Below, piece by piece: positions 2,523-21,444 of a DNA stretch of 64,000 nt. A program made the position numbers and the translations under genes. The DNA is from Hellea sp. (lineage in GTDB: Bacteria; Pseudomonadota; Alphaproteobacteria; Caulobacterales; Maricaulaceae). The stretch lies in NCBI GenBank assembly GCA_020629545.1, contig JAHDDC010000004.1:1-64000 (forward strand), in the 5' to 3' direction. Numbering within the stretch: position 1 is the first letter of the stretch; each line of letters opens with the position of its first letter. The notes under the pieces were generated by a model that was not told where the DNA came from, did no database searches, and saw only the letters and a program-made list of their open reading frames with translations.

Positions 2523-3677
2523 ATGACTAACATAAAAAAAATATCAAAACTGCTTCTGGGCGCAAGTACTCTGACAGTTTTCACAGCGGGGACAGCATTT
2601 GCCGACGGAACATCTGCGGGTACATCTGTGGCAAACACGTTCACACTTGACTACCAAGTGGGTGGAACCGTTCAAGAGACGATCGAAACTTGTGACGGTG
2701 ACCCTAGTTGTGGCGGAAATGATAATTCTACTCGGTTTACAGTTGACCGTAAAATTGACTTAACAGTGGAAGTCGAGACAAGCCCAGAAACGGTATTTCC
2801 GGGTGAAACAGACGCTCTTTTGGTTTTCACGGTCACAAATACAGGTAACGACACTCAGGCATACAGAATTAATCTGACAAATGATGGTGCTGATGACTTC
2901 GACCCTGATGCAGTGACTTACTATGTGTTCCCTGGAGAAGCCGACGGATCATGTGACACGGCGTCAAATCTCGTTCCCGCAAACGCTTACACAAGTGGAG
3001 ACTTAACGGCAGACGTTTTACCAGACGCAACAATTTGTCTTGTTGCCGAAAGTGATATACCACTGACATCCGATAATAATGGTGATGGTGTCGATGGCGA
3101 TGTTTCCAATCTTACATTGGTTGCAGAAACATGGTCGCCGGTAAACTATCTTATTGATACAGCACCAAGCACTTCAGTTGAAGAAACGGCTGATACGGGA
3201 ACAAACAGCATTCTCGGATCTGCTGAGAATGTGCTCGTAGATCCAGCTGGTCCAGATTCAGGTGACAATGCAGGAGACGGTGATCATTCTGTCATTGGTA
3301 CTTATCAGATGATCAGCCCTGACCTTAGTGCACTGAAATCTGTCGCTGTGATTTCCACAGACGGTTCTGGTTGTGGTACTTCGCCGACAACACCGACTGC
3401 CAATGATGATACACAATATTCTATCCCTGGCGCCTGTGTTGAATATGTTATCGCAGTGACAAATGCAGGAAGCACTGAAGCTACTGATATTAATATATCA
3501 GATACGTTGCCGGCTGACGTAACCTACGCTAGTTCCAATCTGTCAGGTTTTTCCGCTGGTTCTGTTGATGCTGGCGGTGTTCCGACCATCTCACTGGTAA
3601 ATGGTACTTTGGATGGGCCTACCGGCGGCGCAACGGATAACGTCGGATATCTGATTATCCGCGCGACTGTGAACTAA
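2523..3677 (+). CDS. Secreted DUF11-repeat protein
   Basis: A 384-residue protein starting at ATG 2523, with GGGAAG six bases upstream; a TTG two codons earlier is not needed. The signal peptide ends near TAGTAFA-DG. The mature protein contains at least two DUF11-type beta-sandwiches: one at about residues 80-200 (LLVFTVTNTGNDTQAYRINL) and a C-terminal one at about 265-384 (CVEYVIAVTNAGSTEATDIN). Cysteine pairs and an Asp-rich loop (DNNGDGVDGD) suggest disulfides and calcium binding. There is no transmembrane anchor. It lies 92 bases upstream of the giant barrel-containing gene, in the same direction, and is probably co-expressed with it. It may be a structural subunit or cargo of that protein; this is inferred from context. 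Confidence 0.8.
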   Translation: MTNIKKISKLLLGASTLTVFTAGTAFADGTSAGTSVANTFTLDYQVGGTVQETIETCDGDPSCGGNDNSTRFTVDRKIDLTVEVETSPETVFPGETDALLVFTVTNTGNDTQAYRINLTNDGADDFDPDAVTYYVFPGEADGSCDTASNLVPANAYTSGDLTADVLPDATICLVAESDIPLTSDNNGDGVDGDVSNLTLVAETWSPVNYLIDTAPSTSVEETADTGTNSILGSAENVLVDPAGPDSGDNAGDGDHSVIGTYQMISPDLSALKSVAVISTDGSGCGTSPTTPTANDDTQYSIPGACVEYVIAVTNAGSTEATDINISDTLPADVTYASSNLSGFSAGSVDAGGVPTISLVNGTLDGPTGGATDNVGYLIIRATVN

Positions 3678-3769: not shown

Positions 3770-6700
3770 ATGAACAAACAGTTTCAACATAGGTTGAAGC
3801 TTCTGACCCTGACGGCATCGTTTCATGCCCTTTGTGCGGATTTTGCTTACGCTCAAACAATAGGTCGAGAAGTGACAAATATTGCCGATGTATCCTTTAG
3901 CATTGGCGAGTCGCGCGTATCATTGCCGACTAATGAAGCAGTTTTTATAATCGAGCCTCCTAGAGTTCTCCCTAAAATAGAATTTTTTAGATATTCACCG
4001 AATGCCACAAACCCGGAAATGGTGAATGTCAATGGCTCTGAATACAGCCCAAATGGGGATCTATATGGACCGTTCTCTTCAACGGGTGATCCAATAAACA
4101 CTGGGCGAATGTTAGATTTATCGGGGCCTGTTCCGCTGATTCCGGCAGAATCCTATCTCTCCGGCGAATTGATCTTTGTAAATGTAAGTTTCGTCACGGG
4201 AAACGTTGACTCATCTGTGATCGACACTTTGGTGATTACGGTTGAAGCAGAAAGCGGTGACTTTATTACGCTGAAACTTTTCGAAAGCGGACCAGATACA
4301 GGGGAGTTTTGGGCTTATCTGCCTTCGACACCTACTGTGACCACTCGCAATGATCCGTTCATGACGGTAGGTAGTAATGAACGCTTAATCGCGACTTTTA
4401 CAAGTCAAAACGGTTCGGGTTTTGCTGGCAATGCATCCATCAAATCCGTTGCAGACGCAGCAAGTGTAAATCCGTTTAATACGGTATTTAACGCGGTAAC
4501 AGGAGAACCTATCGATGGCACGACTCTTCGTTTAATTAATCTTGACACTGGGCAAGATGCATCTGTTGTAGGCGTAGATGGATTTTCAGATTTTCCGTCA
4601 TTAATTATCAGCGGGAATAGCCAAGAAGATGCGAGCGGTCTTGTTTACGAAATGCCACAAGGGATGTTTGCTTTCCCTAATCTTGAGCCCGGTCGATATG
4701 CAATTGAAGCCACGCCTCCTGAAGGTTATAGCTTTGCTTCATCACTGCAAGCAGATGAGATAAACGCTCTAACAGGAACAGCCTATTTCATCATCGATGC
4801 TTCCTATGGCGAAGCTTATGAAAATGTCGAATTTTCTCCACTAAGATTCGATATTCCTCTTGATCCAGCATCAGAAATCTCTGTTACAAAGATCGCAGAT
4901 CGTAGCTATGCCGATGTAGGCGATTTTATCAATTACACCGTTATCGTACAAAACCTTGGTACTTCATCTGTTCCCTTAAATCTTGATGACAGTCTTCCAA
5001 GAGGGTTCCGATATGTGGAAGATACTTCTCGTCGGGATGAGTTCTTTATCAATGATCCGGAAATATCTGATAGCGGTTCTGTTATTTCGTATGATCTCGG
5101 GATAATCGATCCCAATACGACAATTGAATTGAGTTACGCCCTAAGGGTGGGACCTGGCGGATTTGTTCTAGGTGAAGCCGTAAATGCCGCCGTCGCAGTA
5201 GACAGCGCCGGAAATCCCGTCTCAAACGTAAGTCGCGCTACGGTAAAATTACGTGAGGATCTTTTACGCTCACGGTCGACAATTGTCGGCCGGGTCACCC
5301 ATGGATCTTGTGACGATGGTGAGGACTGGGCCCGAAATATTGATATCGGCAAGCCGGTAGAGGGCGTTCGCCTTTATATGGAAACTGGCGCCTATGTCGT
5401 AAGTGATCCTGATGGCCTGTTTCATTTTGAAGGCGTGAGTGAAGGAACGCACGTTGTCCAGGTCGACGAAGAGACCTTGCCAGCAGGGTTTGAACTAATG
5501 TCTTGCGAGGAGAATACCCGGTACGCTGGTCGTTCCAACTCCAAATTTGTTGATATTCAAGGGGGCGGGATTTGGCGGGCGAATTTCTATTTGAGACAGA
5601 CTTCTGATGCCGTAACCGCGAACGAAGAATTTGAGGAATACACCGATCAAACGGAATACAAACAATATGACGATGCTTGGCTTGAGACTCAATCTGCTGA
5701 GGCGGAGTGGGTATATCCAGTAAAAGCCCCTTCAATTCCATCTGCAAACATTGGTATCAAACACGGGCCAAAACAAAAAGTCGAATTGAGACTCAACGGC
5801 GCAGATGTTCCGATCCTAAATTTCGAAGGAAAGGACAGTAACTCTGATAAATCCGTATACCTTTCCAGGTGGCGAGGGCTGGATCTCCAAAACGGAAAGA
5901 ACCGTTTCCAGATAACTGTGAAATCTGAATCAGGGAGCATCGTTCAGGCATTTGAGCATGATTTACACTATGTAACGAATGTCGAAAGAGTATCAGCGTT
6001 ACCTGGGCAATCTGTATTGGTCGCGGACGGCCGTACAGCACCTGAGATAGCAATTCGTCTGGAGGACGCGTCAGGCCACGGCGTGAATTCCGGACGAATT
6101 GTTCAGGTGGAAGTCGAGGATCCCTATCAGTTGGAAATCGACGACAGGATCGCCCGAAACGATGACCTACTTGCGCCATACTCAGCCCAAACTGATGTCA
6201 CCGTTGGCAATGACGGTATCGCAAAAATAAAATTAGAACCAACTCTGCAGACGGGTAAGGTCACAGTCAACGTCAAACTGGATAATGGACGGATTGTTCC
6301 AATTCAAATGTATTTGGAACCAGAGCAGCGTGATTGGATTGTTGTCGGTCTTGCTGAAGGGGCCATCGGTTACGAAACCGTCAAGGATAAAGCTATCGAT
6401 CTTTCGCTGAAATCAAGCGATACCATTCGTGATGGCCGTGTAGCATTTTTCGCCAAAGGTTTGATTAAAGGTAATTGGTTGATGAGCTTGGCCGTTGATA
6501 CAGATAAACGGCGCGGCACGCAGGACGGTGACTTCCTCGAAGAAATTGATCCAAATGCATATTATACTTTGTATGGAGATCGTTCCTATCAGGAACACGA
6601 AGCGTTGAGCCGTTATCCAATCTACGTCAAGTTAGAGAGGAAATCTGCTTACGCTCTTTTCGGAGATTTTGATACGAACATTACAGAGGGGCGTTTGACG

Positions 6701-9532: not shown

Positions 9533-9779
9533 GTGTATTCAACGAATGTGATGCCGTTTATAATTGAAGAGCGGCTAAAAACTGACTCTTTATAGGGAGA
9601 TCAATTCAGAAACGCTGTGCGTCATCAAAGTTAAGGGGTATTGGAAAATTGAGCAAACCCTTGTTCTTTTGCTTCGGTTGCTATTTTCCTGCTCAGTCTT
9701 GATGTGCTCAAGAACAGCTCCAAGTCTTTTACTTCCCTTAATATCAGCCTGTTTGCTCCCATGACTTGCGTAAAAGTCG

Positions 9780-10242
9780 GGGACAATCCGATCTTCCTTT
9801 CAGCAAAAATAGTCCGCCAGATCCTCAATGTCATCAAGATCACGATGTAAGTTTTTTGGGTTCCTTGGGTTCGATAGCAAATTTTGCATTATGCTTTCTC
9901 AATATACGCATCAAGAAAAACGATTAGCGACGGGCAGGGTAGATTATACCTTCGAGCCGCAATTCTTTCACAAGACAGTCCAATAGTGTTCGGTTAACAC
10001 GCTCAACTCTGCCTTGGGCTTGAGTTGTTTTAGCGCAAATAATCTAGACCTGAAGCTAATGAAGCGCCGATCCAAATTGGGTCATGCCGTCGCCGCCAAC
10101 AGCACCTTTGGTAGTTCATGCGGAAAACAGAATGCTTATCGCTATAAAAGGCAAGGGGACGACCGTGTTTTTTGAAGTAGGATTCTGTCGCCAGGAATTT
10201 ATTTAAGAAAAATCTCAATGAGACTTCATATTGAAGTTGCAA
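9780..10242 (-). pseudogene. ISNCY-like transposase remnant (frameshifted)
   Basis: Reading the minus strand in successive frames reconstructs the catalytic part of a DDE transposase. HGRPLAFYSDKHSVFR (10120-10167) carries a catalytic Asp. After a frame change comes TQFGSALH, with stops nearby, then KTTQAQGRVERVNRTLLD and KELRLEGI (about 9924-10034), with the catalytic Glu in GRVER. Further shifted pieces read FLDAYIEK and KFAIEPKEP. From memory of the family, this order matches transposases of the ISNCY/ISDol1 type. At least three frame changes and several stops show that it is dead. The N-terminal HTH part is not recognisable beyond 10250. It marks an old insertion between the surface locus and the D-amino-acid operon. 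Confidence 0.75.
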
Positions 10243-10336
10243 GATGTAATTAAACTAAAATTTCCGACGAAAGACAGACAAGGAGCCTTCAAAAATATCT
10301 ATATCTCGCGCTTCTTTGAACAGAAAGGGGGAGGTG

Positions 10337-10352
10337 ACGCGAAATATCGCGT
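10337..10352. repeat. Short perfect inverted repeat in mobile-element debris
   Basis: ACGCGA-AATA-TCGCGT is a perfect 6-base stem with a 4-base loop. It lies just left of the first copy of the GTGGACACATTT direct repeat, in a region with no gene. It may be part of a former insertion-sequence end. Confidence 0.35.
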
Positions 10353-10373
10353 ATTAGTGAATTCTGACACTTA

Positions 10374-10409
10374 GGCCTGGTGGACACATTTTCGAAAAAA
10401 ACGGCCAAA
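10374..10409 (+). repeat. Direct repeat copy 1 (GTGGACACATTT element)
   Basis: About 36 bases beginning GGCCTGGTGGACACATTTTC, then an A-run and GGCCAAA. It recurs, slightly diverged, at 11070-11107 in the same orientation. The pair brackets the recombinase remnant and AT-rich debris. This is consistent with duplicated insertion-sequence ends or with the scars of two related insertions. Confidence 0.6.
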
Positions 10410-10522
10410 GTGGAAACGCCATAATCGTTTTCAGAAAGCCAGATTACGTACTTAGACACATGTTTTGGCTCAATATCGACAACGTCTGATATCGCTGATG
10501 TTGCTATAAATCCGAAAAATAA

Positions 10523-10885
10523 ATTGATGCCATTGCTGTAAGAAGTCTTCGTGTTCTCATTCGTAATAGCCGTGAGAAAATCGTCCTAACTTTCGCTAAG
10601 AGCGATGTGTCTTTGCCGAATGCTTTTATGTTTCCTTCATCGCATGGTAAATCTGGGACTTTAAAACCATACAAGCGGTACGCGAACAACGCGGTGTGAG
10701 AAACCGTCAGGAGACTTGGACAGGACGCAAGACTTTGCATTTCAATAAATCCTAGAAAACTTAGATCGAGCGGGATCAGTCACAAGATAAGTACACAATA
10801 CGATATCACAACTGTTCAGCAACTTGTTGGTCATACATGCTTGGGTACGACCGGATTCTATAGCCCCACAAGAAAAACCGTTTAA
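10523..10885 (+). pseudogene. Tyrosine recombinase (integrase) C-terminal remnant
   Basis: One continuous frame, broken by a single TGA at 10697-10699, encodes the end of an XerC/D-type recombinase. FMFPSSHGKSGTL resembles the segment before the catalytic box, INPRKLRSSG resembles a decayed H-x-L-R box, and TTVQQLVGHTCLGTTGFYS is a clear match to the LLGH...TT..Y signature carrying the catalytic His and Tyr. The N-terminal and core-binding domains are missing. The decayed arginine box and internal stop mean it is inactive. It points to a past integrative element in this interval. Confidence 0.7.
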
Positions 10886-11069
10886 ACCGGAGTGCTTTGT
10901 TTTCAATAATAACGCCAATTTCTCATAAATAACGCCGATAAATCATTGAATTCATGAGAATTCTCACCAATTAAACCTCCGACCAGTGTCTAGGGTATAA
11001 ATATCCATTATTTCTCATAATAAACATTATGCGAGTCGGACGCCGTTTCAAAAGTGTTGCGTTTTAAGT

Positions 11070-11107
11070 GGCCTAGTGGACACATTTCCGAAAAAAAAAT
11101 GGCCAAA
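11070..11107 (+). repeat. Direct repeat copy 2 (GTGGACACATTT element)
   Basis: GGCCTAGTGGACACATTTCC, then a run of nine A and TGGCCAAA. It is about 90% identical by eye to the copy at 10374-10409 and in the same orientation. It lies about 350 bases left of the IS transposase fragment and could be an end of that element. Confidence 0.6.
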
Positions 11108-11159
11108 ATAAAGAACAATTGCAGAACATATAGATAGTCCTCTTTCACCATTTATTATA

Positions 11160-11181
11160 CAACATAATGCATGTTATGTTG
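11160..11181. promoter_or_regulatory. 22-base near-perfect palindrome
   Basis: CAACATAA-TGCATG-TTATGTTG has perfect 8-base arms around a 6-base centre that is itself nearly symmetric. The arms and spacing look like a binding site for a dimeric regulator. No gene starts close downstream (the LysR start is over 500 bases away), so it may belong to a lost gene or a mobile-element end. Confidence 0.4.
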
Positions 11182-11422
11182 CATGACGACAAAAATGCCA
11201 TTCCAACTCAGTCTACTTCGCCAGACCTTATTACACCCTCTCGTAATCCGACGTTTTTCAGATAATTTAGAAGTTCAGCTGCAAATTAGCTTTCTATTTT
11301 CGGGCCGATGCCTGCCGCCAAAGCCGAACGGCCTCGGCCTCTCGCATTAAAGCGGCCTGTGCGGGGCTTGGAAGGTTTGGCATAGGTGCGCCGTCCGCTC
11401 GACCGCTTGGCAATCGCCTTGA

Positions 11423-11638
11423 TATCCAGCCTCCGAGAAGCTTGAGATCATCCGTTTGGAGGAGCGCTCATCGCGCCGTGCCAAGTGGACCCTGGATAAG
11501 CTGGGCGTCAATCGCCGCACTTTTTACCGTTGGTATGACCGTTATCTGCATTACGGCGAAGGCGGCCTTGTTGACCGTACCCCGCATACTTGCCGGGTAT
11601 GGAACAAGATACCGGATAAGGCCAGATTTATAGAGGTT
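11423..11638 (+). pseudogene. IS transposase N-terminal HTH fragment
   Basis: The frame reads SEKLEIIRLEERSSRRAKWT, then LDKLGVNRRTFYRWYDRYL and DRTPHTCRVWNKIPDKAR. This is the N-terminal helix-turn-helix and linker of an integrase-type transposase (IS3/IS481-like, from memory). It stops at about KAR, exactly where the rve catalytic core should begin; the following codons (FIEVYKKRISIF) are unrelated. It is preceded by a stop and is clearly more GC-rich than its left flank. The same frame runs without a stop into the LysR gene, so a long chimeric frame exists, but it is a fragment and not part of a real fusion protein. Confidence 0.75.
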
Positions 11639-11698
11639 TATAAAAAGCGGATAAGTATTTTCTGTCCGGTTCTGTTTCTTTGCTGTATACAACAACTC

Positions 11699-12589
11699 AT
11701 GCGACTTCGGCATATAGAAATATTCCATGCAGTATACATGACTGGCTCAGTGAGCGGAGCCGCAAAGTCCCTGAACGTGTCGCAACCGACCGTAAGCAAA
11801 ATTTTGCGCCACGCCGAAGACCAGTTGGGATTCGAATTGTTTTATCGTGAAAAAGGCCGCATTTTTCCAACTGAAAAAGCCAATCTGTTATTCACCCAGA
11901 TTATACCCGTCTATGAACAGCTCAATGAGCTAAAAAAATATACGGTTATGTTAAAATCAACGAATGTGGGTCGCCTAAGAATAGCGATGACGCCCGCGTT
12001 CAGTCTACAAGCTGTTCCCCGGGCCCTCGCCGCGTTCAATAAAAAACATCCAGACATCCCCATAGAGATCGAAACTCAACACGCCTCCGAGATCTCACGT
12101 TTGATACAAAACAGCACCATAGATCTTGGAATTGTCTTCGAGGCGGTTTCCCAGCCGGGTTTGGAAATTCAGCATTTGGGCCAAACAGAATTTGTTTGCG
12201 TAACGCCAAAGTCACATAAAAACTTTAATAGAAAAATCAGCTTGGAAGATTTGGCCACCCTCCCCCTTATCCGGCTCAATGCAAAAAGTCCGCTGGGTCA
12301 TATGCTCAACAAAAAACTCGAGGGGCTGGGCCTATATCCCGATGGGAGTAATATCGTTGCCGAAACTTATCATCTGGCCAAACGTCTCGTTGAACAAGGC
12401 ACGGGTGTGGCTGTTATCGATAAGATCACCGCTTATTCTGGCACCAAAACGCAATTGAGATTTCACGAATTACCGGATTTAGAACCCATAAAGATTGACG
12501 TAATTTCACGCTCTAATGATCCAATAATATCCTTTAAACAGGACTTTCTAGCAATACTCAAAGCAGAGTTAATAACATATGCGGGATAA
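11699..12589 (+). CDS. LysR-family transcriptional regulator
   Basis: A 296-residue protein of normal family length. An N-terminal winged helix-turn-helix (MRLRHIEIFHAVYMTGSVSG, then AAKSLNVSQPTVSKILRHAE) is followed by a periplasmic-binding-protein-like effector domain from about residue 90. The frame extends 81 codons upstream into transposase debris; ATG 11699 is chosen because it aligns with the usual LysR start. It sits immediately upstream of, and in the same direction as, the TonB receptor operon. Paired palindromes with LysR-type geometry occur in the 117-base gap. It therefore most likely controls D-amino-acid or peptide uptake genes in response to a substrate or its product. The palindrome TGTATACA at 11684-11691, just before its start, could serve in autoregulation. 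Confidence 0.85.
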   Translation: MRLRHIEIFHAVYMTGSVSGAAKSLNVSQPTVSKILRHAEDQLGFELFYREKGRIFPTEKANLLFTQIIPVYEQLNELKKYTVMLKSTNVGRLRIAMTPAFSLQAVPRALAAFNKKHPDIPIEIETQHASEISRLIQNSTIDLGIVFEAVSQPGLEIQHLGQTEFVCVTPKSHKNFNRKISLEDLATLPLIRLNAKSPLGHMLNKKLEGLGLYPDGSNIVAETYHLAKRLVEQGTGVAVIDKITAYSGTKTQLRFHELPDLEPIKIDVISRSNDPIISFKQDFLAILKAELITYAG

Positions 12590-12614
12590 AATATTTTAAT
12601 TCCTACCGCTATTG

Positions 12615-12642
12615 TATAGCTATTGGCTATACCCTCGGTATA
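12615..12642. promoter_or_regulatory. Twin overlapping palindromes upstream of the TonB receptor gene
   Basis: Two perfect inverted repeats with the same 5-base spacer overlap: TATAGC-TATTG-GCTATA (12615-12631) and TATAC-CCTCG-GTATA (12628-12642). Their centres are about 12 bases apart, roughly one helical turn, so two dimers could bind side by side. Both fit the T-N11-A style of LysR boxes. They lie 26 bases after the LysR stop and about 65 bases before the receptor start, where an activator site is expected. Candidate operator for the LysR protein encoded just upstream. Confidence 0.6.
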
Positions 12643-12706
12643 TAATTGAATTTGCTTTAATCGAGGACTCTCGGTCAATCTAAAACCAGTTTCAAAGGGG
12701 AGAAAT

Positions 12707-15640
12707 ATGAAACAGTCTACAATCATAAAATCACTTCTATTATCAACGGCACTGGCTGGAGCCACCATCACCGCGTCGGCGCAGACATCCGAAACAAGTG
12801 AAGACGACGAGATTATTGTTGTCGGGACGCAAATTAAGGGATCAGATATCGCCGGAATTTTACCGGTAACCTCCCTGGATGCAATAGACATAGAAACGAC
12901 AGGCGCAGTGTCCGGTGATGAACTGTTAGCGTCAATTCCTCAAATTGGAGATGTAACATTTCGCGAAGGTCGCTTCACAGGTGTCAATGGAGCTCGTGGA
13001 GACGTAGGCTCTGTTAATTTGCGCGGTGTAGGAGACGGCAACACATTAGTACTTTTGAATGGCCGCAGAATGGTCAATCACCCCGGCACTCAGGCGGTCA
13101 ACCAAACCCCAGTCGTTTCGGTGAATTCAAACGCTATGCCGGTTACGGGGATAAAGAGGATCGAAGTGCTCAGAGATGGCGCTTCCGCTGTCTATGGTTC
13201 TGACGCCGTCGCAGGTGTCATCAATACTGTCTTGGATGACAGCTATGAAGGCATGCAAGTACAGCTAAAATATGGTTCATCCGAAGGCACAAGCCTTGAT
13301 GAGTTATCGGGCACTGCCAAATGGGGCACCAATACGAATGACGGCAAAACTAACATATCCGTTTTTGGTAACTTCATGACTCGAAACGGTATGCCTGCGA
13401 CTGACCTTATTAACTCCTCAACAGAAGATCTAAGGCCCTTCTTCGAAGGGACCGTCTATGAAGGCGATTCACAGTTTTTCAATCGATCCGGTGATACTCA
13501 ATTTGCTGAGCTCGAGACCGTATCAGGTGCCGACGTGCCGGGAACCACAGATGATGATGTGTATGTACGTCCCGTATCTTTCGGAAGCTGTTTGGTACCT
13601 TTGACGCCAACTACATGTCTAGTGAACGGCACAAATGTTCCCACTAGCCTCCGATTAGACCGAGCGGGCTACAGAGATATAGTCGGAGATACAGACAGAT
13701 ATAATCTGATGGCATTCGTTAATCATGAAATGGATAACGGAATGGAGCTGTTTGGTGAAGCGTCATACTACCATGCCGATTACAACAGAGAGCGGGAGAT
13801 GGCTCAGATTTTGGGAAGTAATCCAATCGGCGTATCCGCCAATGCTTTCCACAATACAACGGGCGTTGATCTGCGCCTTAAAGATTACAGACCAATAGAT
13901 GCCGGCCCGAGAAAAATCGAAGTCAAAAATGATAGTTTCCGTATCCTTGGCGGCGTAAGAGGCCAGATGAGCGAATGGGACTGGGAGGCTGCATTCCTGC
14001 ATTCTGAAGCTAAAACTAAGGACCGCACAAATAGAGTTAGTAATACTCTATTCCAACAAGCAATAAACGGAACCAACGCGTCGGCTTACAACATTTTCGC
14101 AGGGGGAAATCAATCAGACCTAAACGCCCCCAATTTTGCCAATGATCAAAGTGTAATCGATAGCTTTATGGTCAACGTAAAAAGAGATGGTACAACAAAG
14201 TTGACTTTGGCAGATGCCAAGTTTTCAAATCCATCCATCTTTTCTTTGCCAGCTGGCGATGTCGGAGCTGCGGTGGGCGTAGAATGGCGACATGAATCCT
14301 ATCAAGATGATAGAGATGACAGGCTGGATGGGACGATTGTCTTTAACGATACAGTTATAGGAACGACCAATTTGTCTGATGTTATGGGCTCAAGCCCTAC
14401 CCCAGACACAAATGGTGATCGTGACGTATTAGGCGCTTTTGTTGAGCTTGCTGTTCCTCTCATTAGCCCAGAAATGGATATGCCGTTATTTCATTCTTTG
14501 GATGTGCAACTTGCTGCCCGCGCAGAAGATTATTCCGATGTCGGTAGTGTCGTTAAGCCAAAAATTGCGGCTTCTTGGTTTCCATTTGAAATGTTCCAAA
14601 TCCGCGGCGCTTATGCTGAAGGGTTCAGGGCGCCAAATCTAGAGCAAATCAATGCTACAGAGATACGACGGGTCAACAGTAGTAGAGAAGACTGGATTGT
14701 TTGCCACGCCCTACAAGGGGGCCCAGATTTTACGAATGATAATGACTGTGATAATTTGACCGTTGAGAGCATCCGCGGCGGAGGCCCAGATCTAAAGCCA
14801 GAAAGTAGCGTCAATTATTCGCTAGGTGCTACATTCGAACCAACATCAAATCTGACCTTCATGGTAGACTGGTGGAAGATAAAACAAGAGAACCTAGTCG
14901 GAATATTCGGCGATCAAAATCAAATCACTTTAGATTATCTTCTAAGATTACAAGGAAGCTCCAATCCAGGAGTGTTAAGAGGAACTCCGGATCCTACTCT
15001 TGCTGCGGCATTTACCGCTGCTGGTCTTGATCCATCCGGGGCCGGCGACATTATTGGCGTTCAAGATACATTCCTGAATTTGGACGATCGTACAAGTGAA
15101 GGAATCGATTTTGGAGCTGTTCTTGATTTTGAAGTCGATGGTATCGGCGATCTTCGCTTCAAAGCGAATGCTGCCCATATTATCGAGTTTTTCCAGGATC
15201 CAGGCATGGATGCACAATTGTTGTCCGACGCTAGAGATGCCGGAACATTGAGCAGTTTGATCGCAGTTACAGGGCAATCAGACTTAAGGCGTGAAAATGG
15301 TAATCCAGAATGGCGCTATTCTGGCTCGATACGTTGGGACAACGGCCCACTTGGCGCCAGCGCATCTTATCGGCGTGTCGGAGATGTATTTGACACCTCC
15401 GTAACTGGCGCTGATTTTGACGAATTTACAATCCCCGCTTGGGATCAAATTAATCTCGCCGCTGATTATACGTTCGAAAACGGGATGTTTGGAGGTAGCG
15501 AAACACGTATCCGTGTAGGCGTAAACAATGTAAGCGACAACAAACCACCTATCGCTGACGAGTTCGCTCGCGGCTACTTCGTTAGCTTGCACTCTAATCG
15601 TGGTCGTTATTGGCACGCCAGTATCCGTCACGACTTTTAA
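12707..15640 (+). CDS. TonB-dependent outer-membrane receptor
   Basis: A 977-residue receptor. The signal peptide ends at TASA-QT; the region around DDEIIVVGTQIKGSD looks like the TonB box and plug start. The plug domain spans to about 175, with the typical VNLRGVGDGNTLVLLNGRR and IEVLRDGASAVYGSDAVAGV motifs. A 22-strand barrel is expected through to the terminal Phe (ASIRHDF), the usual outer-membrane insertion signature. Its length and motifs resemble the large receptors that alphaproteobacteria use for peptides and other oligomers rather than short siderophore receptors. A strong ribosome site (AAAGGGGAG) precedes ATG 12707. It is the first gene after the LysR regulator and probably brings the substrate of the downstream peptidase and deacylase across the outer membrane. 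Confidence 0.92.
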   Translation: MKQSTIIKSLLLSTALAGATITASAQTSETSEDDEIIVVGTQIKGSDIAGILPVTSLDAIDIETTGAVSGDELLASIPQIGDVTFREGRFTGVNGARGDVGSVNLRGVGDGNTLVLLNGRRMVNHPGTQAVNQTPVVSVNSNAMPVTGIKRIEVLRDGASAVYGSDAVAGVINTVLDDSYEGMQVQLKYGSSEGTSLDELSGTAKWGTNTNDGKTNISVFGNFMTRNGMPATDLINSSTEDLRPFFEGTVYEGDSQFFNRSGDTQFAELETVSGADVPGTTDDDVYVRPVSFGSCLVPLTPTTCLVNGTNVPTSLRLDRAGYRDIVGDTDRYNLMAFVNHEMDNGMELFGEASYYHADYNREREMAQILGSNPIGVSANAFHNTTGVDLRLKDYRPIDAGPRKIEVKNDSFRILGGVRGQMSEWDWEAAFLHSEAKTKDRTNRVSNTLFQQAINGTNASAYNIFAGGNQSDLNAPNFANDQSVIDSFMVNVKRDGTTKLTLADAKFSNPSIFSLPAGDVGAAVGVEWRHESYQDDRDDRLDGTIVFNDTVIGTTNLSDVMGSSPTPDTNGDRDVLGAFVELAVPLISPEMDMPLFHSLDVQLAARAEDYSDVGSVVKPKIAASWFPFEMFQIRGAYAEGFRAPNLEQINATEIRRVNSSREDWIVCHALQGGPDFTNDNDCDNLTVESIRGGGPDLKPESSVNYSLGATFEPTSNLTFMVDWWKIKQENLVGIFGDQNQITLDYLLRLQGSSNPGVLRGTPDPTLAAAFTAAGLDPSGAGDIIGVQDTFLNLDDRTSEGIDFGAVLDFEVDGIGDLRFKANAAHIIEFFQDPGMDAQLLSDARDAGTLSSLIAVTGQSDLRRENGNPEWRYSGSIRWDNGPLGASASYRRVGDVFDTSVTGADFDEFTIPAWDQINLAADYTFENGMFGGSETRIRVGVNNVSDNKPPIADEFARGYFVSLHSNRGRYWHASIRHDF

Positions 15641-15651
15641 CCAGTAAAGGT

Positions 15652-15691
15652 TTTAGCGGGAGAAATCCCGCTAAACACTCCATTAGGAGTG
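15652..15691 (+). promoter_or_regulatory. Tandem hairpins after the TonB receptor gene
   Basis: A perfect 10-base stem with a GAAA tetraloop (TTTAGCGGGA-GAAA-TCCCGCTAAA, 15652-15675) is followed at once by a 6-base stem (CACTCC-ATTA-GGAGTG, 15676-15691). No T-tract follows, so this is better read as an mRNA-stabilising or processing element than a terminator. The second stem sequesters an AGGAG that could act as a ribosome site for the mini-ORF at 15704. Confidence 0.6.
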
Positions 15692-15703
15692 AACGGGATA
15701 GCT

Positions 15704-15730
15704 ATGCCTACACTTATGAAAATATCATGA
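15704..15730 (+). CDS. Possible 8-codon leader ORF coupled to the D-amino-acid dehydrogenase
   Basis: ATG CCT ACA CTT ATG AAA ATA TCA TGA encodes MPTLMKIS. Its stop overlaps the start of the next gene in an ATGA, the usual arrangement for translational coupling. GGGA lies five bases upstream and AGGAG about fourteen. The downstream gene has no good ribosome site of its own. This may be chance, but the overlap and position are suggestive. Confidence 0.3.
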   Translation: MPTLMKIS

Positions 15731-16932
15731 GAGTTTGCGTTTTGGGCGCGGGCGTTGTTGGTGTAACAACAGCCTATCTACTGACCAGAGCCGGTCATGA
15801 TGTAACCGTGATCGAGAAAGCGCCAGGTCCCGCTGAAGGAACGAGTAAGGCCAACGGAGCACAATTAGCCTATTCATATGTAGAACCATTTGCTTCGCCC
15901 AAAACCGTCAAAAACCTTCTGAACTATTTTTTAGGCTCTGACCCTGGTATAAAACTCGGTTTGACTTTGAAACCGAGCTATTGGGGTTGGGGACTAAAAT
16001 TTTTAAACAACTGTCAAAGTTCCAAATACCAAAAGAACTTTGACGAACACAAAAGTTTTGCGAAATTAAGCCGGAATACCCTCTCAGAAATTGAATCCGA
16101 AATGCCAAGTGGCGCTATTCCCCGCACAGGCAAGGGCAAGCTCGTCATAGTCGAAGATAAAAAGTCTTTTCATGGTCTCCTAGCGTCGAGTCGAAACTCA
16201 GCAGAAGAAGCTCATGTTAGACCGCTTAATAAAGCTGAATGTATTGAATTAGCACCCACCCTTGGACGAAATAATCGTCCAATTTACGGCGGCGTATATT
16301 GCGATACAGACGAAGCCTTGGATACTCAGACATATTGTTCGGTTTTGCTTTCAACAAATATAAGAAATCGGAAACCAAATCTTAGATTTAATGAGGAATT
16401 CCAGTCTCTAATTTTAGATCAAGGGCGCGTTTCGGGCATCAAAACTGATAACGGAACTTTTGAGTTCGACGCGGTTATCGCGTGTCTTGGCGGCGATCTA
16501 AATTCCGTTTTGAGAGATTATATTAAACCCCTGCCCATCTATCCAGTTCAAGGCTATAGCGTCACACTTCCTGCTACAGTAGACGCGCCAGTTTGTAGCA
16601 TTACGGATCTTAAGCACAAATTCGTCATCGCCAATCTGGGCGAAAAAATCCGTATCGCCGGCTTTATGGATACTAATCTTTCGCCTACCCGTTCCGAAGA
16701 GCGAGCCAAAGAGCTACTTGAGACTGCACGCCGCCTATGGCCTGGAATTGCCGATTATAACGCCGAGCCTAATTTTTGGATTGGACAGCGCCCCATGACG
16801 CCAGGCGGTTTACCGATCATTCAAGAAAGCAAAACCCCCGGGCTTTATATTAATGCAGGACACGGCTCTATGGGATATACTTTCGCAGCTGGCAGTGCAG
16901 CCCGGATCGTTGAATTGATTGGGTCTGTCTAG
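15727..16932 (+). CDS. FAD-dependent D-amino-acid dehydrogenase (DadA-like)
   Basis: A 401-residue FAD oxidoreductase of the DAO family. The N-terminal dinucleotide-binding motif is VLGAGVVGVTTAYLL. Other family features are the cofactor-loop segment around GTSKANGAQLAYSY and the C-terminal WIGQRPMTPGGLPIIQ ... YINAGHGSMGYTFA block. DadA-type enzymes oxidise D-amino acids to imino acids, which hydrolyse to 2-oxo acids and ammonia, passing electrons to the respiratory chain at the inner membrane. A frame exists from 15610, but that part overlaps the receptor gene; ATG 15727 begins exactly at the FAD motif. It lies between the TonB receptor and the carboxypeptidase gene and is probably the last catabolic step of the operon. 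A RidA gene at the operon end fits imine production. Confidence 0.88.
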   Translation: MRVCVLGAGVVGVTTAYLLTRAGHDVTVIEKAPGPAEGTSKANGAQLAYSYVEPFASPKTVKNLLNYFLGSDPGIKLGLTLKPSYWGWGLKFLNNCQSSKYQKNFDEHKSFAKLSRNTLSEIESEMPSGAIPRTGKGKLVIVEDKKSFHGLLASSRNSAEEAHVRPLNKAECIELAPTLGRNNRPIYGGVYCDTDEALDTQTYCSVLLSTNIRNRKPNLRFNEEFQSLILDQGRVSGIKTDNGTFEFDAVIACLGGDLNSVLRDYIKPLPIYPVQGYSVTLPATVDAPVCSITDLKHKFVIANLGEKIRIAGFMDTNLSPTRSEERAKELLETARRLWPGIADYNAEPNFWIGQRPMTPGGLPIIQESKTPGLYINAGHGSMGYTFAAGSAARIVELIGSV

Positions 16933-16946
16933 GATTGGAGAGGAAT

Positions 16947-18182
16947 ATGAAACGAGTCTATCTTACAAGCGCAGCGCTTTTTTTGTTAGGCGCCTGCCAG
17001 ACTGTGCCCTCCCCCCATTCTCCTACACAGGTTCTTGAAAAGGCGACAAGTCCGGCTCTATGCGCTAATGATATTGCGGAAATCCGAGATGATTTTCTTA
17101 CAGCGCGGGTCAGCGGATGTGATATAAATTCTACTACGGCCGTTCAAATTTCTATTAGACCTGAAAAAACAACAGACCCTCAAGGTAAGCCCATCAATAA
17201 CAGCGCCTGGTATGGCTTTCGGGTTGACCCAATTCAGTCAGGGACTTTGGATGTTACGCTCCAATATTTCAATGGCAAACACCGCTATCATCCTAAAATA
17301 AGCTATGATGGAACAAATTGGGAGTTTTTGGATGAGCGCAAAATAGACAAGATAGCCGAAGACAAAACCCAAATATCGCTGGACCTGGATGGTCGTCCTT
17401 TTTTCATCTCCGCCCAGGAAATTTTTACGCCCAAAGGCCATGATAATTGGACAGATAAACTGGCTCAAAAATCGTTTGTGACAAAGTCTGAAATTGGGCG
17501 TTCACGAGAAGATCGTCCGATATATATGCTGGAAATTGAAACAGAGCCGACCAAGAAAAAACCCTATGTCATGTGGGTCGGGCGTCAGCATCCGCCGGAA
17601 TTAACCGGTGCTCTTGCGCTAATCCCCTTCTCAGAGAAAGTTTTTGATGAAAGCAAATTGTCAAAAGAATTTCTGGATAATTTCAATATCTTGATTGTAC
17701 CAATGATCAATCCAGACGGCGTGGTTCACGGAAACTGGCGTTTTAATATGGGAGGTATGGATCTGAACAGGGATTGGGGACCTTTTACTCAACCGGAAAC
17801 GCGGGCTGTTCTTGGCGCTCTAGAAAGATTTAAATCAGGAGAAAAAAACATTGCTTTTTTCTTAGACTTCCATTCAACTTGGAGAAATCTTTTATACACC
17901 CAAGCCGATGATGAACCGACCACTCCGCCTATGTTCGCCAGAGACTGGCTAAAGGCTGTAGACGACCGTCTCGATGACGAGATCTATCCTTTTACGCGTG
18001 AAGCACGTCACAACTCGGGAAAACCTATTTCTAAAAACTATATGTATGACACCTTTGGTATTTCTGCGATCACATATGAAGTCGGTGACGCAACCCCGCG
18101 ATCAGCGATAAAGCTATCAGCCAAAGTCTTTGCCGAGGAAATGATGCGTCTATTGCTTGAGCATTATGAGGATAAACCATGA
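16947..18182 (+). CDS. M14-family zinc carboxypeptidase lipoprotein
   Basis: A 411-residue protein with a lipobox signal (LFLLGAC, Cys about residue 17), so probably membrane-anchored in the periplasm. An N-terminal beta domain (about 45-165) precedes an M14 catalytic domain of the cytosolic-carboxypeptidase-like type. Zinc ligands are visible as H and E in GRQHPPE and H in DFHSTW. Substrate-pocket motifs are NPDGVVHGNWRFNMGGMDLN and RDWGPF, and the probable catalytic Glu is in TYEVGD. It would remove C-terminal residues from peptides. ATG 16947 follows a GGAGAGG ribosome site; an upstream TTG at 16935 is rejected. The stop overlaps the start of the deacylase gene by four bases (ATGA), so the two are translationally coupled and likely act on the same material. 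Confidence 0.85.
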   Translation: MKRVYLTSAALFLLGACQTVPSPHSPTQVLEKATSPALCANDIAEIRDDFLTARVSGCDINSTTAVQISIRPEKTTDPQGKPINNSAWYGFRVDPIQSGTLDVTLQYFNGKHRYHPKISYDGTNWEFLDERKIDKIAEDKTQISLDLDGRPFFISAQEIFTPKGHDNWTDKLAQKSFVTKSEIGRSREDRPIYMLEIETEPTKKKPYVMWVGRQHPPELTGALALIPFSEKVFDESKLSKEFLDNFNILIVPMINPDGVVHGNWRFNMGGMDLNRDWGPFTQPETRAVLGALERFKSGEKNIAFFLDFHSTWRNLLYTQADDEPTTPPMFARDWLKAVDDRLDDEIYPFTREARHNSGKPISKNYMYDTFGISAITYEVGDATPRSAIKLSAKVFAEEMMRLLLEHYEDKP

Positions 18183-19756
18183 GACTGTTTGCCTGCTTGG
18201 TGATCATATTTTGTCTTACGGCCTGCCAAAAAACCCTAGAAGCTGACTACCTCATTAAAGGCGGCACTGTTTTCCGAGGAGACAATACCCCAGGTGAAAA
18301 CCTTGTTGTCGCGATAAAGGCGGACGAAATCATCTATATTGGCGCTTCCAGTGAAAATATCGAGGCGGGACACGTTATTGATGCGACCGGGCTTTATGTG
18401 CTCCCGGGCTTTATCGACCCACATACTCATTCCATGGGCGAGCTTTTCAACGAAGACCCGGACCTACGGCGCAATGTAAATTACCTCACACAAGGTGTGA
18501 CGACGGTCGTCAATGGCAATGACGGATTCGGCGACCCGGATATTCGTGCTCTCGTCGAGAAAGTCCGTGCCGATGGTATCGGTACAAATACGGCGTTCTT
18601 TTTGGGCCATGGTGCTTTGCGTGAACAAGTTATGGGACGTGAACAGCGCGCACCTAGTGAAAAAGAACTGGAAGAAATGAGACTTCAAGTCAGCGCGGCG
18701 ATGGAAGCTGGAGCTCTAGGTCTGTCTACAGGATTATTTTACGCGCCGGGAAGTTTCTCTGACACCGAAGAAATTATCTCTCTAGCGAAAGTCGCAGCGG
18801 AACATGGGGGCGTCTATGACAGCCATATCCGGGACGAAGCAACATATAGTATAGGCCTTGAGGCCGCTATTGCAGAGGTGATTGAAATCGCTGAGAAAGC
18901 AGATGTTCACGTCAATATTGCTCACATAAAAGCGCTAGGTGTTGATGTATGGGGGAAAAGCGTTCCGTTGGTTGCAACAATCGAAGCAGCCCAGGCGCGC
19001 GGCCTGTCAATTTCAGCTGATCAATATCCGTGGCAGGCCTCCGGTACTCGTATCTCTAATGCTTTGTTGCCTCGCTGGGTTAAAGCGGGCGGCCAAGAGC
19101 AATACATGGCTCGGCTAAATGATTCTGATTTATTAGTAAAAATCAAATCTGAAACAAAAGAGAACCTGCGTAAAAGGGGCGGCGGCGATGCCGTCCTAAT
19201 AACGCAAAATAAAAACAATTGGCAAAATAAAACCCTCACGCAAATCGCTGAGGAACAAAATCTTTCACCTGTTGAGATGGCGATTGAGATAGCGCGCCAA
19301 GGCGATGCACGTATTGCCTCTTTTAATATGAACTCGGATGATATCGAGAACTTTATGGCTCAGCCTTGGGTCATGACAAGCTCAGATGGCAGCACTGGCC
19401 ATCCCCGTAAATTTGCCAGTTATCCTGAAAAATACCAGAGCTATGTCATTGGAAAATCCATTATGCCTGTGGAGACCTTTTTTTACCGCAGCAGCGGTCT
19501 TGTCGCCGATAATTTCAATCTTTGCGGTCGCGGTTATTTAAAAGATGATTATGCAGCGGATATCCTCATTCTTGACCCTCAAAAGTTCGCACCTCGCGCA
19601 GACTTTCAAAGCCCGACGGAGCTTTCTGACGGCGTTGTTCACCTTTTTGTCAATGGCAAGCCTGCCATTTTAGAAGGCGCCGTGCAGGACACTCTTTCTG
19701 GACAATTTGTGCCGCGATGTTCTCAAAACAATAAGGAGCCCAGCCATGCTGAATAA
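18179..19756 (+). CDS. N-acyl-D-amino-acid deacylase (D-aminoacylase family) lipoprotein
   Basis: A 525-residue amidohydrolase with a lipoprotein signal (IIFCLTAC). Metal and catalytic motifs of the D-aminoacylase family are present: HTH in GFIDPHTHSMG, H in DSHIRDE, H in NIAHIKALG, and the catalytic Asp in MTSSDGSTGHPRK. The usual GNCG segment, whose Cys bridges the metals in the Alcaligenes enzyme (from memory), reads GNDG here, so the bridging Cys is replaced by Asp. The C-terminal beta-sandwich (YAADILILDPQKFAP ... HLFVNGKPAILEG) is complete. It would release D-amino acids from N-acyl-D-amino acids or D-amino-acid-containing peptides in the periplasm. It overlaps the genes on both sides (4 and 11 bases), showing tight coupling with the carboxypeptidase and the symporter. 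Confidence 0.85.
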   Translation: MRLFACLVIIFCLTACQKTLEADYLIKGGTVFRGDNTPGENLVVAIKADEIIYIGASSENIEAGHVIDATGLYVLPGFIDPHTHSMGELFNEDPDLRRNVNYLTQGVTTVVNGNDGFGDPDIRALVEKVRADGIGTNTAFFLGHGALREQVMGREQRAPSEKELEEMRLQVSAAMEAGALGLSTGLFYAPGSFSDTEEIISLAKVAAEHGGVYDSHIRDEATYSIGLEAAIAEVIEIAEKADVHVNIAHIKALGVDVWGKSVPLVATIEAAQARGLSISADQYPWQASGTRISNALLPRWVKAGGQEQYMARLNDSDLLVKIKSETKENLRKRGGGDAVLITQNKNNWQNKTLTQIAEEQNLSPVEMAIEIARQGDARIASFNMNSDDIENFMAQPWVMTSSDGSTGHPRKFASYPEKYQSYVIGKSIMPVETFFYRSSGLVADNFNLCGRGYLKDDYAADILILDPQKFAPRADFQSPTELSDGVVHLFVNGKPAILEGAVQDTLSGQFVPRCSQNNKEPSHAE

Positions 19757-20984
19757 ACTGATAGCCCTTGGCCTTGTTTTAGGCCTTCTGGTTGGGCTCG
19801 GCGCTTCAATGACTGGAAATGATGCATTGCACGCAATCGCCCGCGAATCCGCACCTCTGGGCAAGCTCTTCATCAATGCCATTAAAATGGTGGTTCTGCC
19901 GCTTGTGGTTACCGTTATCTTTGCCAGTATCGCTAAGCTCGGCGATCCTGCCACTCTCGGAAAGATTGGGGGTAAAACCCTGGCCTTTTACTGGGTCACG
20001 CTCATTCCCGCCATCATCATCGGCATGACCGTCATGACTATTGGTCTAAAATTCACGCCAGATATTATCGTGCCGGATGCCGATCCCGCACAAGTTCCGC
20101 AATTGCAATCCATAACGGATTTTCTGGTTGGGCTTGTTCCCCCTAATCCCTTTGAGGCCGCAGCCAAGGGCGCACTCCTGCCACTCATTGTATTTACAGC
20201 TATTCTTGCCGCTGCAACCGGCACGCTCGCGATTGAAAAACGAACACGCCTGATAACCGCAGCCGAAGACCTCTCCGAAGCTCTTATCAAAATGGTTTGG
20301 TGGATCTTATATCTGGCCCCCATCGGTATATTTGGACTTATCGCACCGGCCACAGCAAAGATGGGCTGGAGCCTATTGCAAAGTCTCGGAGTTTTTATTG
20401 CCTGCGTGTTCATCGGCTTGTTGATACTTTTGTTCGTTTTGTTTCTACCGCTCAACATGTTTATCGGCAAAATCAAACCATTAGATTTCATCAAAGGGAT
20501 CTGGGGCGCAATATCTGTTGCCTTCTCCACTACCAGCACCGCGGCAGCCATCCCGGTCTCTCTAAGGGAAACCACTGAAAATCTGAAAGTCTCAGAAACT
20601 GTTGCTGATATTTTAGTACCGCTAGGTGCATCATTATACAGGCCAGGCAGTGCCTTGTTTCAAGGCGCGGCGATTATTTTTCTCGCCCATATTTTCAATG
20701 TTCCTATCTCCATGGCCGAAGCCGGCGCCATCATTTTGGCGACCTTCCTGGTCTCGTTGACCGTCGCGCCGGTCCCGTCTTCTAGCATTGTTACCATGGC
20801 TCCGGCCTTAAGTTCCATCGGCGTTCCCGCAACAGGATTGGGAATATTATTTGGCATCGACCGTATCCCGGACATGATGCGGACTTGCGTCAATGTTATA
20901 GGGCAAATCTCAACGGCAGTATTGGTCGATCGAACACAAACAAATTCTCAAAAGGATCTATCCCATCATGACAAACCCGATTGA
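19746..20984 (+). CDS. DAACS-family amino acid/dicarboxylate symporter with atypical cation sites
   Basis: A 412-residue inner-membrane transporter of the glutamate/DAACS family, with about eight hydrophobic segments and two hairpin regions. The serine-rich HP1 loop region reads FSTTSTAAAIPVS. TM8 has IPDMMRTCVNVIGQ, keeping the Asp and Arg that bind the amino acid. The conserved NMDGT of TM7 is replaced by YRPGS (about residues 296-300), and the Asp of NVTGD is replaced by Gln. By analogy with GltPh (from memory) these are the sodium ligands N310, D312 and D405, so classical sodium coupling appears lost. ATG 19746 is preferred; it has AAGGAG just upstream and overlaps the deacylase end. It probably imports free D-amino acids released in the periplasm. 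Confidence 0.85.
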   Translation: MLNKLIALGLVLGLLVGLGASMTGNDALHAIARESAPLGKLFINAIKMVVLPLVVTVIFASIAKLGDPATLGKIGGKTLAFYWVTLIPAIIIGMTVMTIGLKFTPDIIVPDADPAQVPQLQSITDFLVGLVPPNPFEAAAKGALLPLIVFTAILAAATGTLAIEKRTRLITAAEDLSEALIKMVWWILYLAPIGIFGLIAPATAKMGWSLLQSLGVFIACVFIGLLILLFVLFLPLNMFIGKIKPLDFIKGIWGAISVAFSTTSTAAAIPVSLRETTENLKVSETVADILVPLGASLYRPGSALFQGAAIIFLAHIFNVPISMAEAGAIILATFLVSLTVAPVPSSSIVTMAPALSSIGVPATGLGILFGIDRIPDMMRTCVNVIGQISTAVLVDRTQTNSQKDLSHHDKPD

Positions 20985-21444
20985 ACAAAGACTTTCTGAC
21001 CTTGGTATAACTTTGGCTGAGCCCTCGGCACCCGTCGCGAACTATGTATCTTTTGTCAGGAGCGGTCAACACGTGTTCATCGCCGGGCAAACGTCTGTGG
21101 CGCCAGACAGCACAATGCTGACAGGAAGGGTCGGTGAAGACCTTGATCTGGAACGCGGACGCCTAGCGGCGCGCTATTGCGGCATTCGTCTGCTTGCCCA
21201 GATGAAAGCTGCGTGCGAGGGAGATTTAACCCGGATTAAACGGGTCGTGAAACTTGGAGGTTTTGTATGCGCTTTGCCGACCTCTAGCGGCCCTATCATT
21301 CCGCAAATCATAAATGGTTGTTCAGACCTAATGGTCGATGTGTTCGGAGATGCTGGTCGTCACGCCAGGTTTGCGGTAGGATCTCCAAGCCTACCGAGGG
21401 ACGCGGCGGTCGAAATCGACGCAATTGTGGAGTTGCACGAATGA
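20968..21444 (+). CDS. RidA/YjgF family reactive-imine deaminase
   Basis: A 158-residue member of the longer RidA-like branch. The typical core is visible: YVSFVRSGQHVFIAGQTS near the N-terminus, AACEGDLTRIKRVVKLGGFV in the middle, and GRHARFAVGSPSLPRDAAVE at the end. The Arg in HARFAVG aligns with the catalytic Arg105 of deaminating RidA proteins (family knowledge from memory). These proteins hydrolyse imine and enamine intermediates. The gene overlaps the symporter by 17 bases with AAGGAT as ribosome site and closes the operon. Next to a D-amino-acid dehydrogenase, a role in deaminating its imino-acid products is the natural reading. It is distinct from the second RidA in the suf operon. 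Confidence 0.88.
   Translation: MTNPIEQRLSDLGITLAEPSAPVANYVSFVRSGQHVFIAGQTSVAPDSTMLTGRVGEDLDLERGRLAARYCGIRLLAQMKAACEGDLTRIKRVVKLGGFVCALPTSSGPIIPQIINGCSDLMVDVFGDAGRHARFAVGSPSLPRDAAVEIDAIVELHE

Follow-up and report, generated by a model that had tools for sequence, protein, structure and literature searches.

The 64,000-nt stretch of DNA analysed here (the window: positions 1 to 64,000 of contig JAHDDC010000004.1, Hellea sp. assembly GCA_020629545.1) carries a cassette of seven co-directional genes on the + strand (11699-21444), which is probably a system for scavenging D-glutamate (D-Glu)-containing peptides. Its conserved core, comprising a TonB-dependent receptor, an M14 carboxypeptidase and a D-aminoacylase-fold lipoprotein (the deacylase), recurs in Alpha- and Gammaproteobacteria; the FAD oxidoreductase, the symporter and the Rid protein form the exchangeable part. 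D-Glu is suggested as the substrate because relatives keep the envelope genes but exchange the final enzyme step, and this inference is a strong one, given that the end steps swapped next to a single conserved uptake core are non-homologous. Glutamate is the common denominator of the cassette versions, while the D-form is indicated by DgcN and DgcA in relatives and by the D-acylase fold. A sequence-only reading of this DNA had proposed a route for the uptake and breakdown of D-amino-acid peptides; its outline was right, but the substrate is probably D-Glu rather than D-amino acids generally.

The genes of the cassette are:

11699-12589, + strand: LysR-family regulator (HTH_1 and LysR_substrate domains; ATG 11699 as likely start)
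12707-15640, + strand: TonB-dependent outer-membrane receptor (Plug 58.6 bits, barrel 112.7 bits)
15727-16932, + strand: DadA-like FAD-dependent oxidoreductase (DAO 184 bits; best NCBIfam model DadA)
16947-18182, + strand: M14 carboxypeptidase lipoprotein, cytosolic-carboxypeptidase (CCP) fold (M14 85 bits; lipobox LGAC)
18179-19756, + strand: D-aminoacylase-fold (Amidohydro_3) lipoprotein (58 bits; PDB 1m7j, E 2e-57; lipobox LTAC)
19746-20984, + strand: DAACS (GltP/GltPh family) symporter (SDF 327 bits; aligned to Asp/Glu transporters)
20968-21444, + strand: Rid-family protein (YjgF_endoribonc 68.5 bits; PDB 3d01, E 1e-39)

Domain matches confirmed the place, strand and order of the six genes named in the earlier reading (receptor to Rid), as did the sequence for the coupling of the last four by overlaps: 4 nt between the M14 and deacylase genes, 11 nt between deacylase and symporter, and 17 nt between symporter and Rid. 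Gaps of 86 nt (receptor to oxidoreductase) and 14 nt (oxidoreductase to M14) lie upstream of these, the oxidoreductase probably starting at ATG 15727 and not at TTG 15610 of the mechanical open reading frame (ORF). The lipoprotein signals of the M14 protein and the deacylase were judged by eye. A LysR gene, absent from the earlier list, sits immediately upstream of the receptor gene in the same direction and is the probable regulator of the cassette. Scans for promoters (15 vs 15.0 in shuffles) and terminators (9 vs 11.3 in shuffles) revealed no excess.

A conserved core beside exchangeable end steps

The sequence-only reading had counted missing linkage among relatives as grounds for refutation, and a neighbourhood search showed this linkage to be strong. 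A deacylase-alignment scan of named genomes detected 375 relatives; the 80 best matches were analysed (all counts out of 80 refer to these). They include Hellea, Robiginitomaculum, Emcibacter, Kordiimonas, Marinicaulis, Colwellia, Thalassotalea, Pseudoalteromonas, Aliikangiella, Kangiella, Roseivirga and others, the closest named relatives by deacylase within this set being Hellea metagenome-assembled genomes (MAGs); five of the 80 loci share contigs with previously fetched loci (e.g. L081 and L042). The ORFs of these loci were clustered and 20 of the 25 largest clusters were named, either by blastp to the window proteins or by Pfam/NCBIfam searches on one representative each; other members took their names from clustering at 25 % identity or above.

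An M14 gene is present in 63/80 loci, a TonB receptor in 57 and any LysR-family gene in 48 (not all orthologous; one in L158 is OxyR). M14 and deacylase genes lie on the same strand in all 63 loci holding both, with a gap or overlap of at most 60 nt in 58 of them. The full six-gene set proposed earlier is upheld in part: linkage is kept, but the conserved heart is receptor, M14 and deacylase, and the rest is exchangeable, with Rid in 2/80 loci. Other neighbours are PGA_cap (24/80), DgcA (23/80), DgcN (22/80), the DadA-like oxidoreductase (17/80), a binding protein (14/80), glutamate dehydrogenase (GDH; 9/80), a LysA-like protein (6/80), gamma-glutamyltranspeptidase (5/80) and a class-III aminotransferase (5/80). 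Transporters beside the core also differ among loci, belonging to GltS (14/80), DAACS (13/80) or the NhaC family (9/80). Curated cut-offs were passed by DgcA (438 bits, cut-off 400), DgcN (505, 480) and GltS (438, 311), one representative each. A proline-racemase or hydroxyproline identity for two ~340-aa neighbours in Gammaproteobacteria was ruled out, these being DgcA and DgcN.

Among the 54 long loci (at least 19 kb), 20 carry DgcN/DgcA, 12 the DadA-like oxidoreductase, seven GDH and five the LysA-like protein, ten carry none of these and no locus carries two together. The four modules are non-homologous and glutamate-related, and one of them is found in 43 of the 45 long loci with receptor, M14 and deacylase. 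DgcN/DgcA never share a locus with the DadA-like oxidoreductase in relatives. Both classes have the Dgc version: alphaproteobacterial examples are Emcibacter L088, Hyphomonadaceae L093 and Phenylobacterium L156, and gammaproteobacterial examples are Aliikangiella L100, Kangiella L115 and Pseudoalteromonas phenolica L120. One gammaproteobacterium (Thiotrichales, L111) carries the oxidoreductase version.

The location of DgcN was then compared with chance in 46 of the genomes behind the 80 loci, hand-picked and mostly with long loci. DgcN was found in 21 of the 46, as a single copy in 16 of these. Clustering puts it within the cassette locus in 15 of the 21, and coordinates add a 16th (L156), against a chance expectation of ~0.4 % (about 21.5 kb per 5 Mb). 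Ten genomes with the DadA-like version were searched and nine gave no DgcN hit; the window's own genome (a 91.6 % complete MAG) returned 0 matches. For GltS, 22 copies were detected in 17 of 26 genomes searched, nine of them inside the locus.

These neighbours also bear on the breadth of the substrate. Use of D-amino-acid peptides or N-acyl-D-amino acids in general, with no preference for D-Glu, would agree with the broad family-level annotations of the cassette proteins and with the many D-amino acids taken by DadA and D-aminoacylases. It is nonetheless unlikely, as the recurring neighbours (DgcN, DgcA, GltS, GDH) are glutamate-specific, M14 Lys363 and symporter Arg378 (see below) favour acidic residues, and the 20 named of the 25 listed clusters included no enzyme dedicated to a D-amino acid other than D-Glu, the other five and the smaller clusters being unscanned. 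Nothing was found in favour of lipopeptides or racemised organic matter, which had also been suggested as substrates.

The LysA-like version is the least familiar. This pyridoxal phosphate (PLP) decarboxylase is encoded in six loci (L103, L119, L126, L137, L141 and L153, the last from Aliiglaciecola lipolytica) without the other three modules, and its gene adjoins GltS or LysR in five of them. The cassette copies score 223-238 bits (LysA cut-off 298), and a canonical LysA (475-539 bits) is present in five of the six genomes; the best LysA copy of the sixth (G275) scores 299 bits and has one internal stop. A CFAGD motif is invariant in the cassette copies, at a site where canonical LysA presumably has a CESGD-type motif; we treat this as a lead only. 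The protein is a candidate D-glutamate decarboxylase or diaminopimelate (DAP)-consuming enzyme, and the possibility that these neighbours are ordinary DAP decarboxylases is left open. Marine bacteria use LysA to consume DAP, according to PMC9602339, and such a role in the cassette would itself support a peptidoglycan source. A route through gamma-aminobutyrate is weakly supported: a class-III aminotransferase occurs in two of the six loci (L119 and L153), and no succinate-semialdehyde dehydrogenase was found among the further neighbours scanned (two in L153, of glycosyltransferase and mannosyltransferase types; one in L119, PhoH-like). The phrase D-glutamate decarboxylase and two variants of it matched no paper in a literature search in which most subscription journals were not covered.

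The window's own assembly holds four copies of the M14-deacylase pair, always in the order LysR-receptor-oxidoreductase-M14-deacylase-symporter-Rid. The three further copies are L039, L040 and L041 (contigs C32, C9 and C17), the last with a PGA_cap gene (L041:1182-3086) inserted between symporter and Rid. The window, L039 and L040 copies share 72-79 % mutual DNA identity over nearly 10 kb; L041 matches in pieces only. As the same order recurs on these three contigs and in other genera (there mostly without the Rid gene), the arrangement is not due to chance. The deacylase was found in five of ten genomes of the genus searched, its own included; the other four carry one copy each and five carry none. 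For the window assembly, itself a MAG, contamination is estimated at 7.46 %, and its four copies may reflect either expansion or mixed binning.

A predicted route from peptide to 2-oxoglutarate

We propose that the receptor imports short D-Glu-bearing peptides, most likely peptidoglycan stem peptides (L-Ala-gamma-D-Glu-mDAP, where mDAP is meso-DAP). In the periplasm, the M14 lipoprotein would trim the C-terminal residue beside D-Glu (between gamma-D-Glu and mDAP), and the deacylase would cut the amide on the D-Glu nitrogen (between L-Ala and D-Glu), releasing free D-Glu; a D-acylase could make this cut because L-Ala-D-Glu is chemically an N-acyl-D-Glu. The symporter would bring D-Glu into the cell, where the flavoenzyme may oxidise it to 2-iminoglutarate and the Rid protein may help convert this to 2-oxoglutarate. 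The LysR protein would switch the cassette on, presumably in response to D-Glu.

The M14 model (predicted local distance difference test score, pLDDT, 91) best matches bacterial CCPs (4b6z: Z 36.8, root-mean-square deviation (rmsd) 2.8, 347 aligned, model residues 42-407), a match that spans the N-domain and the CCP fold. CCP5 also aligns well (Z 33.8, rmsd 3.5, 362 aligned), with the carboxypeptidase A/B group next. H215, E218, H309, E378, R265, N274 and R275 are invariant in 63/63 M14 sequences; by carboxypeptidase A (CPA) numbering we take these to be the zinc ligands, the Arg/Asn that bind the C-terminal carboxylate and the catalytic Glu. The protein thus shares the two-domain M14 fold and the zinc- and carboxylate-binding residues with CCP5 and the bacterial CCPs (4a37, 4b6z, 3l2n, 3k2k), but differs in being a predicted exported lipoprotein and in having a basic residue at position 363 (Lys in 62/63 sequences, Arg in 1/63) where the four bacterial CCPs have Cys (3l2n, 4a37) or Ser (4b6z, 3k2k). 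Lying 15 residues before the catalytic Glu378, Lys363 would occupy the CPA-255 position, assuming no indel between. In carboxypeptidase O, Arg255 confers acidic specificity, according to PMC9925722. In the M14 protein, the pocket would be suitable for Glu as well as for the outer carboxylate of DAP.

The main alternative source of D-Glu is poly-gamma-glutamate, a capsule polymer, from which the M14 protein would trim gamma-linked Glu as a deglutamylase while the other enzymes free D-Glu. The PGA_cap genes (poly-gamma-glutamate-type) beside the related loci and in one own-assembly copy are consistent with this, as are the gamma-glutamyltranspeptidases; both kinds of neighbour also count in favour of the D-Glu peptide reading. 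CCP5, the nearest human relative by fold, is a deglutamylase. M14 enzymes, however, normally need an L-residue at P1' and the ends of the polymer are often D-Glu, PGA_cap proteins are widespread and vary in function, and no dedicated poly-gamma-glutamate hydrolase family was seen among the named clusters, all of which makes this source improbable. The peptidoglycan stem would fit the pairing of carboxypeptidase and D-acylase best. In the alphaproteobacterial Dgc loci L088 and L093, a second large M14-domain protein (~864 aa) is encoded directly downstream of the deacylase (L088:6660-9251, L093:11600-14188); its cluster has members in four loci.

For the deacylase model (pLDDT 92), D-acylases and OngB make up the first nine PDB matches (E 1.7e-43 to 1.4e-41), the next family following at 4.7e-18, placing it in the D-aminoacylase (subtype V) fold. 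It shares this fold and H82, H84, H216, H249, K251, D403 and R410 with the N-acyl-D-glutamate deacylase BbDam (3gip) and the D-aminoacylase AfDam (1m7j), at 29-30 % identity in the structure alignment, but is a predicted lipoprotein and has Asp115 for the Cys ligand. Both HxH histidines and the two His ligands are invariant, and the catalytic Asp (D403) and carboxylate-binding Lys and Arg (K251, R410) are found in 80/80 sequences. Subtype V is defined by a Cys/His/His metal site in PMC12017989; here, both His are kept and the Cys is replaced by Asp115 in 80/80. We predict that the protein is an N-acyl-D-glutamate or Xaa-D-Glu hydrolase.

Shared kinds of parts raise the possibility of an oxidised amino sugar (GlcNAc1A) as substrate, as in the ong cluster for oxidised chitin in Pseudoalteromonas. 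This cluster is the nearest described set in the literature found, sharing with the cassette a TonB receptor, an inner-membrane symporter, a D-aminoacylase-fold enzyme (a deacetylase in ong), a deamination step, a Rid protein and its own regulator. It differs in its sugar-acid substrate, PLP deaminase, kinase, SSS symporter, MurR/RpiR regulator and cytoplasmic Cys/His/His deacetylase (PMC9537276, for both comparisons). No OngC-type deaminase, sugar kinase or hexosaminidase was found among the scanned cassette proteins, the deacylase has the D-aminoacylase residue Thr290 (79/80) where OngB has Ser292, and the M14 peptidase, like DgcN/DgcA/GltS in relatives, does not fit. We rejected this substrate on the absent deaminase and kinase and on Thr290, and consider it extremely unlikely.

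The oxidoreductase is predicted to be an FAD-dependent D-amino acid dehydrogenase, probably for D-Glu. In the symporter, Arg378 is conserved in 14/14 aligned cassette sequences, matching the Arg of transmembrane helix 8 in DAACS acidic amino acid transporters; we take it to correspond to GltPh Arg397, a reader of the side-chain carboxylate. Nine of the 14 symporters are of YRPG type and five of NMDG type at the sodium motif; outside the 14, the L041 symporter has the usual NMDGT. The Rid protein (Arg134 in 3/3) is a predicted 2-imino acid deaminase.

It is also conceivable that the D-type annotations mislead and that the enzymes act on acidic L-peptides, releasing L-Glu or L-Asp. The CCP and carboxypeptidase O relatives and the neighbouring GDH act on L-Glu, and the nearest solved relatives of the oxidoreductase are not D-Glu enzymes. 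We regard this as very unlikely, since DgcN and DgcA serve D-Glu (by NCBIfam names, PMC10845958 and PMC12363236) and the deacylase is closest, among solved structures, to D-acylases and OngB, with other amidohydrolases a long way behind.

Counter-evidence and genomic setting

Several observations weigh against a D-Glu peptide system. The four modules were defined after inspection of the neighbourhoods, the loci are not independent (Colwellia-like genomes are over-represented), and of the ten long loci without any module (four from Bacteroidota, eight without the full core), L108 and L144 do have the full core. GDH, which acts on L-Glu, was seen here only in Colwellia, Thalassotalea and Alteromonadaceae records, and its position beside the core could be plain synteny in Colwellia relatives. 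DgcN lies elsewhere in the genomes of L146 (Kordiimonas aquimaris, DadA-like version) and L134 (GDH version), and in two of the six LysA-like genomes (L137 and L141; the other four have none), so a genome may have D-Glu routes besides the module next to its core.

Among the proteins, the oxidoreductase reaches 298.9 bits with the DadA model (NCBIfam PRK00711; cut-off 383), its nearest solved relatives by sequence are of glycine-oxidase and sarcosine-oxidase types, and its specificity is not readable from sequence. At the site of the GltPh sodium motif NMDGT, the window symporter reads YRPGS, and the Rid gene is rare among relatives. Carboxypeptidase O (Z 27.0) is tied with A4 (26.2) as a match to the M14 model, and the fold alone thus does not favour acidic ends. 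As the deacylase is without the defining Cys ligand of subtype V, even its activity is only predicted, and BbDam Arg295, which contacts the gamma-carboxylate, has no sure counterpart: P298/R299 were matched by eye in an insertion domain that aligns poorly, position 299 being basic in 65/80 sequences (Lys 36, Arg 29). Finally, the peptidoglycan source is suggested by chemistry and weak neighbours only.

A broader survey found the M14 protein (E 1e-30 or better) in 38/249 genomes of the order. Of the 40 neighbourhoods fetched (37 other genomes and the three own contigs), 11 include the deacylase and three have M14 alone; the remaining 26 (within L047-L078) pair M14 with a TonB receptor without the deacylase, pointing to a wider receptor-peptidase partnership.

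Around the cassette, a histidine kinase is encoded downstream on the opposite strand. Upstream, the long ORF of the LysR gene runs in frame into a transposase-type helix-turn-helix (11456), and the region 9600-11690 has no clear genes and resembles degraded mobile DNA, with the motif GTGGACACATTT repeated at 10380 and 11076. Further upstream, the protein encoded by 3770-9532 (1920 aa) contains a DUF11 domain, and its carboxypeptidase-regulatory-like match falls just short of the cut-off; smaller ORFs near it also have DUF11 matches (2517-3677; 36-1106, below the cut-off). The source bacterium is probably marine.

Related systems and biological meaning

The sequence-only reading knew of no described system with all of these parts. 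Related sets do exist, namely the ong cluster and the dgu and dgc loci for free D-Glu, which together are the closest described systems. The dguRABC locus of Pseudomonas aeruginosa, said to have been described by He et al. in 2014, reportedly serves free D-Glu/D-Gln. It reportedly combines a LysR regulator, an FAD D-Glu dehydrogenase and a Rid-family protein in one locus, and genes of these kinds are present in the cassette. It also has a periplasmic binding protein, DguC, whereas none was found among the scanned cassette proteins; dguRABC is not known to include a receptor, an M14 peptidase, a deacylase or a DAACS symporter.

The DgcN-DgcA pathway is a D-glutamate pathway of marine bacteria (PMC10845958 and PMC12363236) and has the same predicted substrate, DgcN/DgcA lying within the deacylase locus in 20 of the 54 long related loci. 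The window genome has the flavoenzyme and Rid in place of DgcN. The main text of PMC12363236 mentions neither TonB, M14 nor deacylase. Among the matches listed, no paper linked the receptor, M14 peptidase and deacylase to D-Glu, a result that leaves most subscription journals uncovered and is no proof of novelty.

A more specific proposal can be offered only tentatively, and in its entirety is doubtful: that in marine bacteria the receptor, CCP-fold carboxypeptidase and Asp-ligand D-acylase strip stem peptides to D-Glu, feeding interchangeable non-homologous routes, one of them an undescribed LysA-fold PLP D-glutamate decarboxylase, and that the deacylase represents a new metal-site subtype, an Xaa-D-Glu dipeptidase.

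D-Glu is locked in peptidoglycan and belongs to the organic nitrogen that turns over slowly in the ocean. To our knowledge, the D-Glu loci known so far handle the free amino acid; if the D-glutamate-peptide reading is true, the core module would supply the outer-membrane and periplasmic half of D-Glu use. The exchange of end steps also points to two unusual features of biochemistry: Asp instead of Cys at the metal of a D-acylase, and a LysA-like enzyme at the place that D-Glu catabolism takes in relatives. As the core occurs beside DgcN/DgcA in cultured strains, this role is directly testable.

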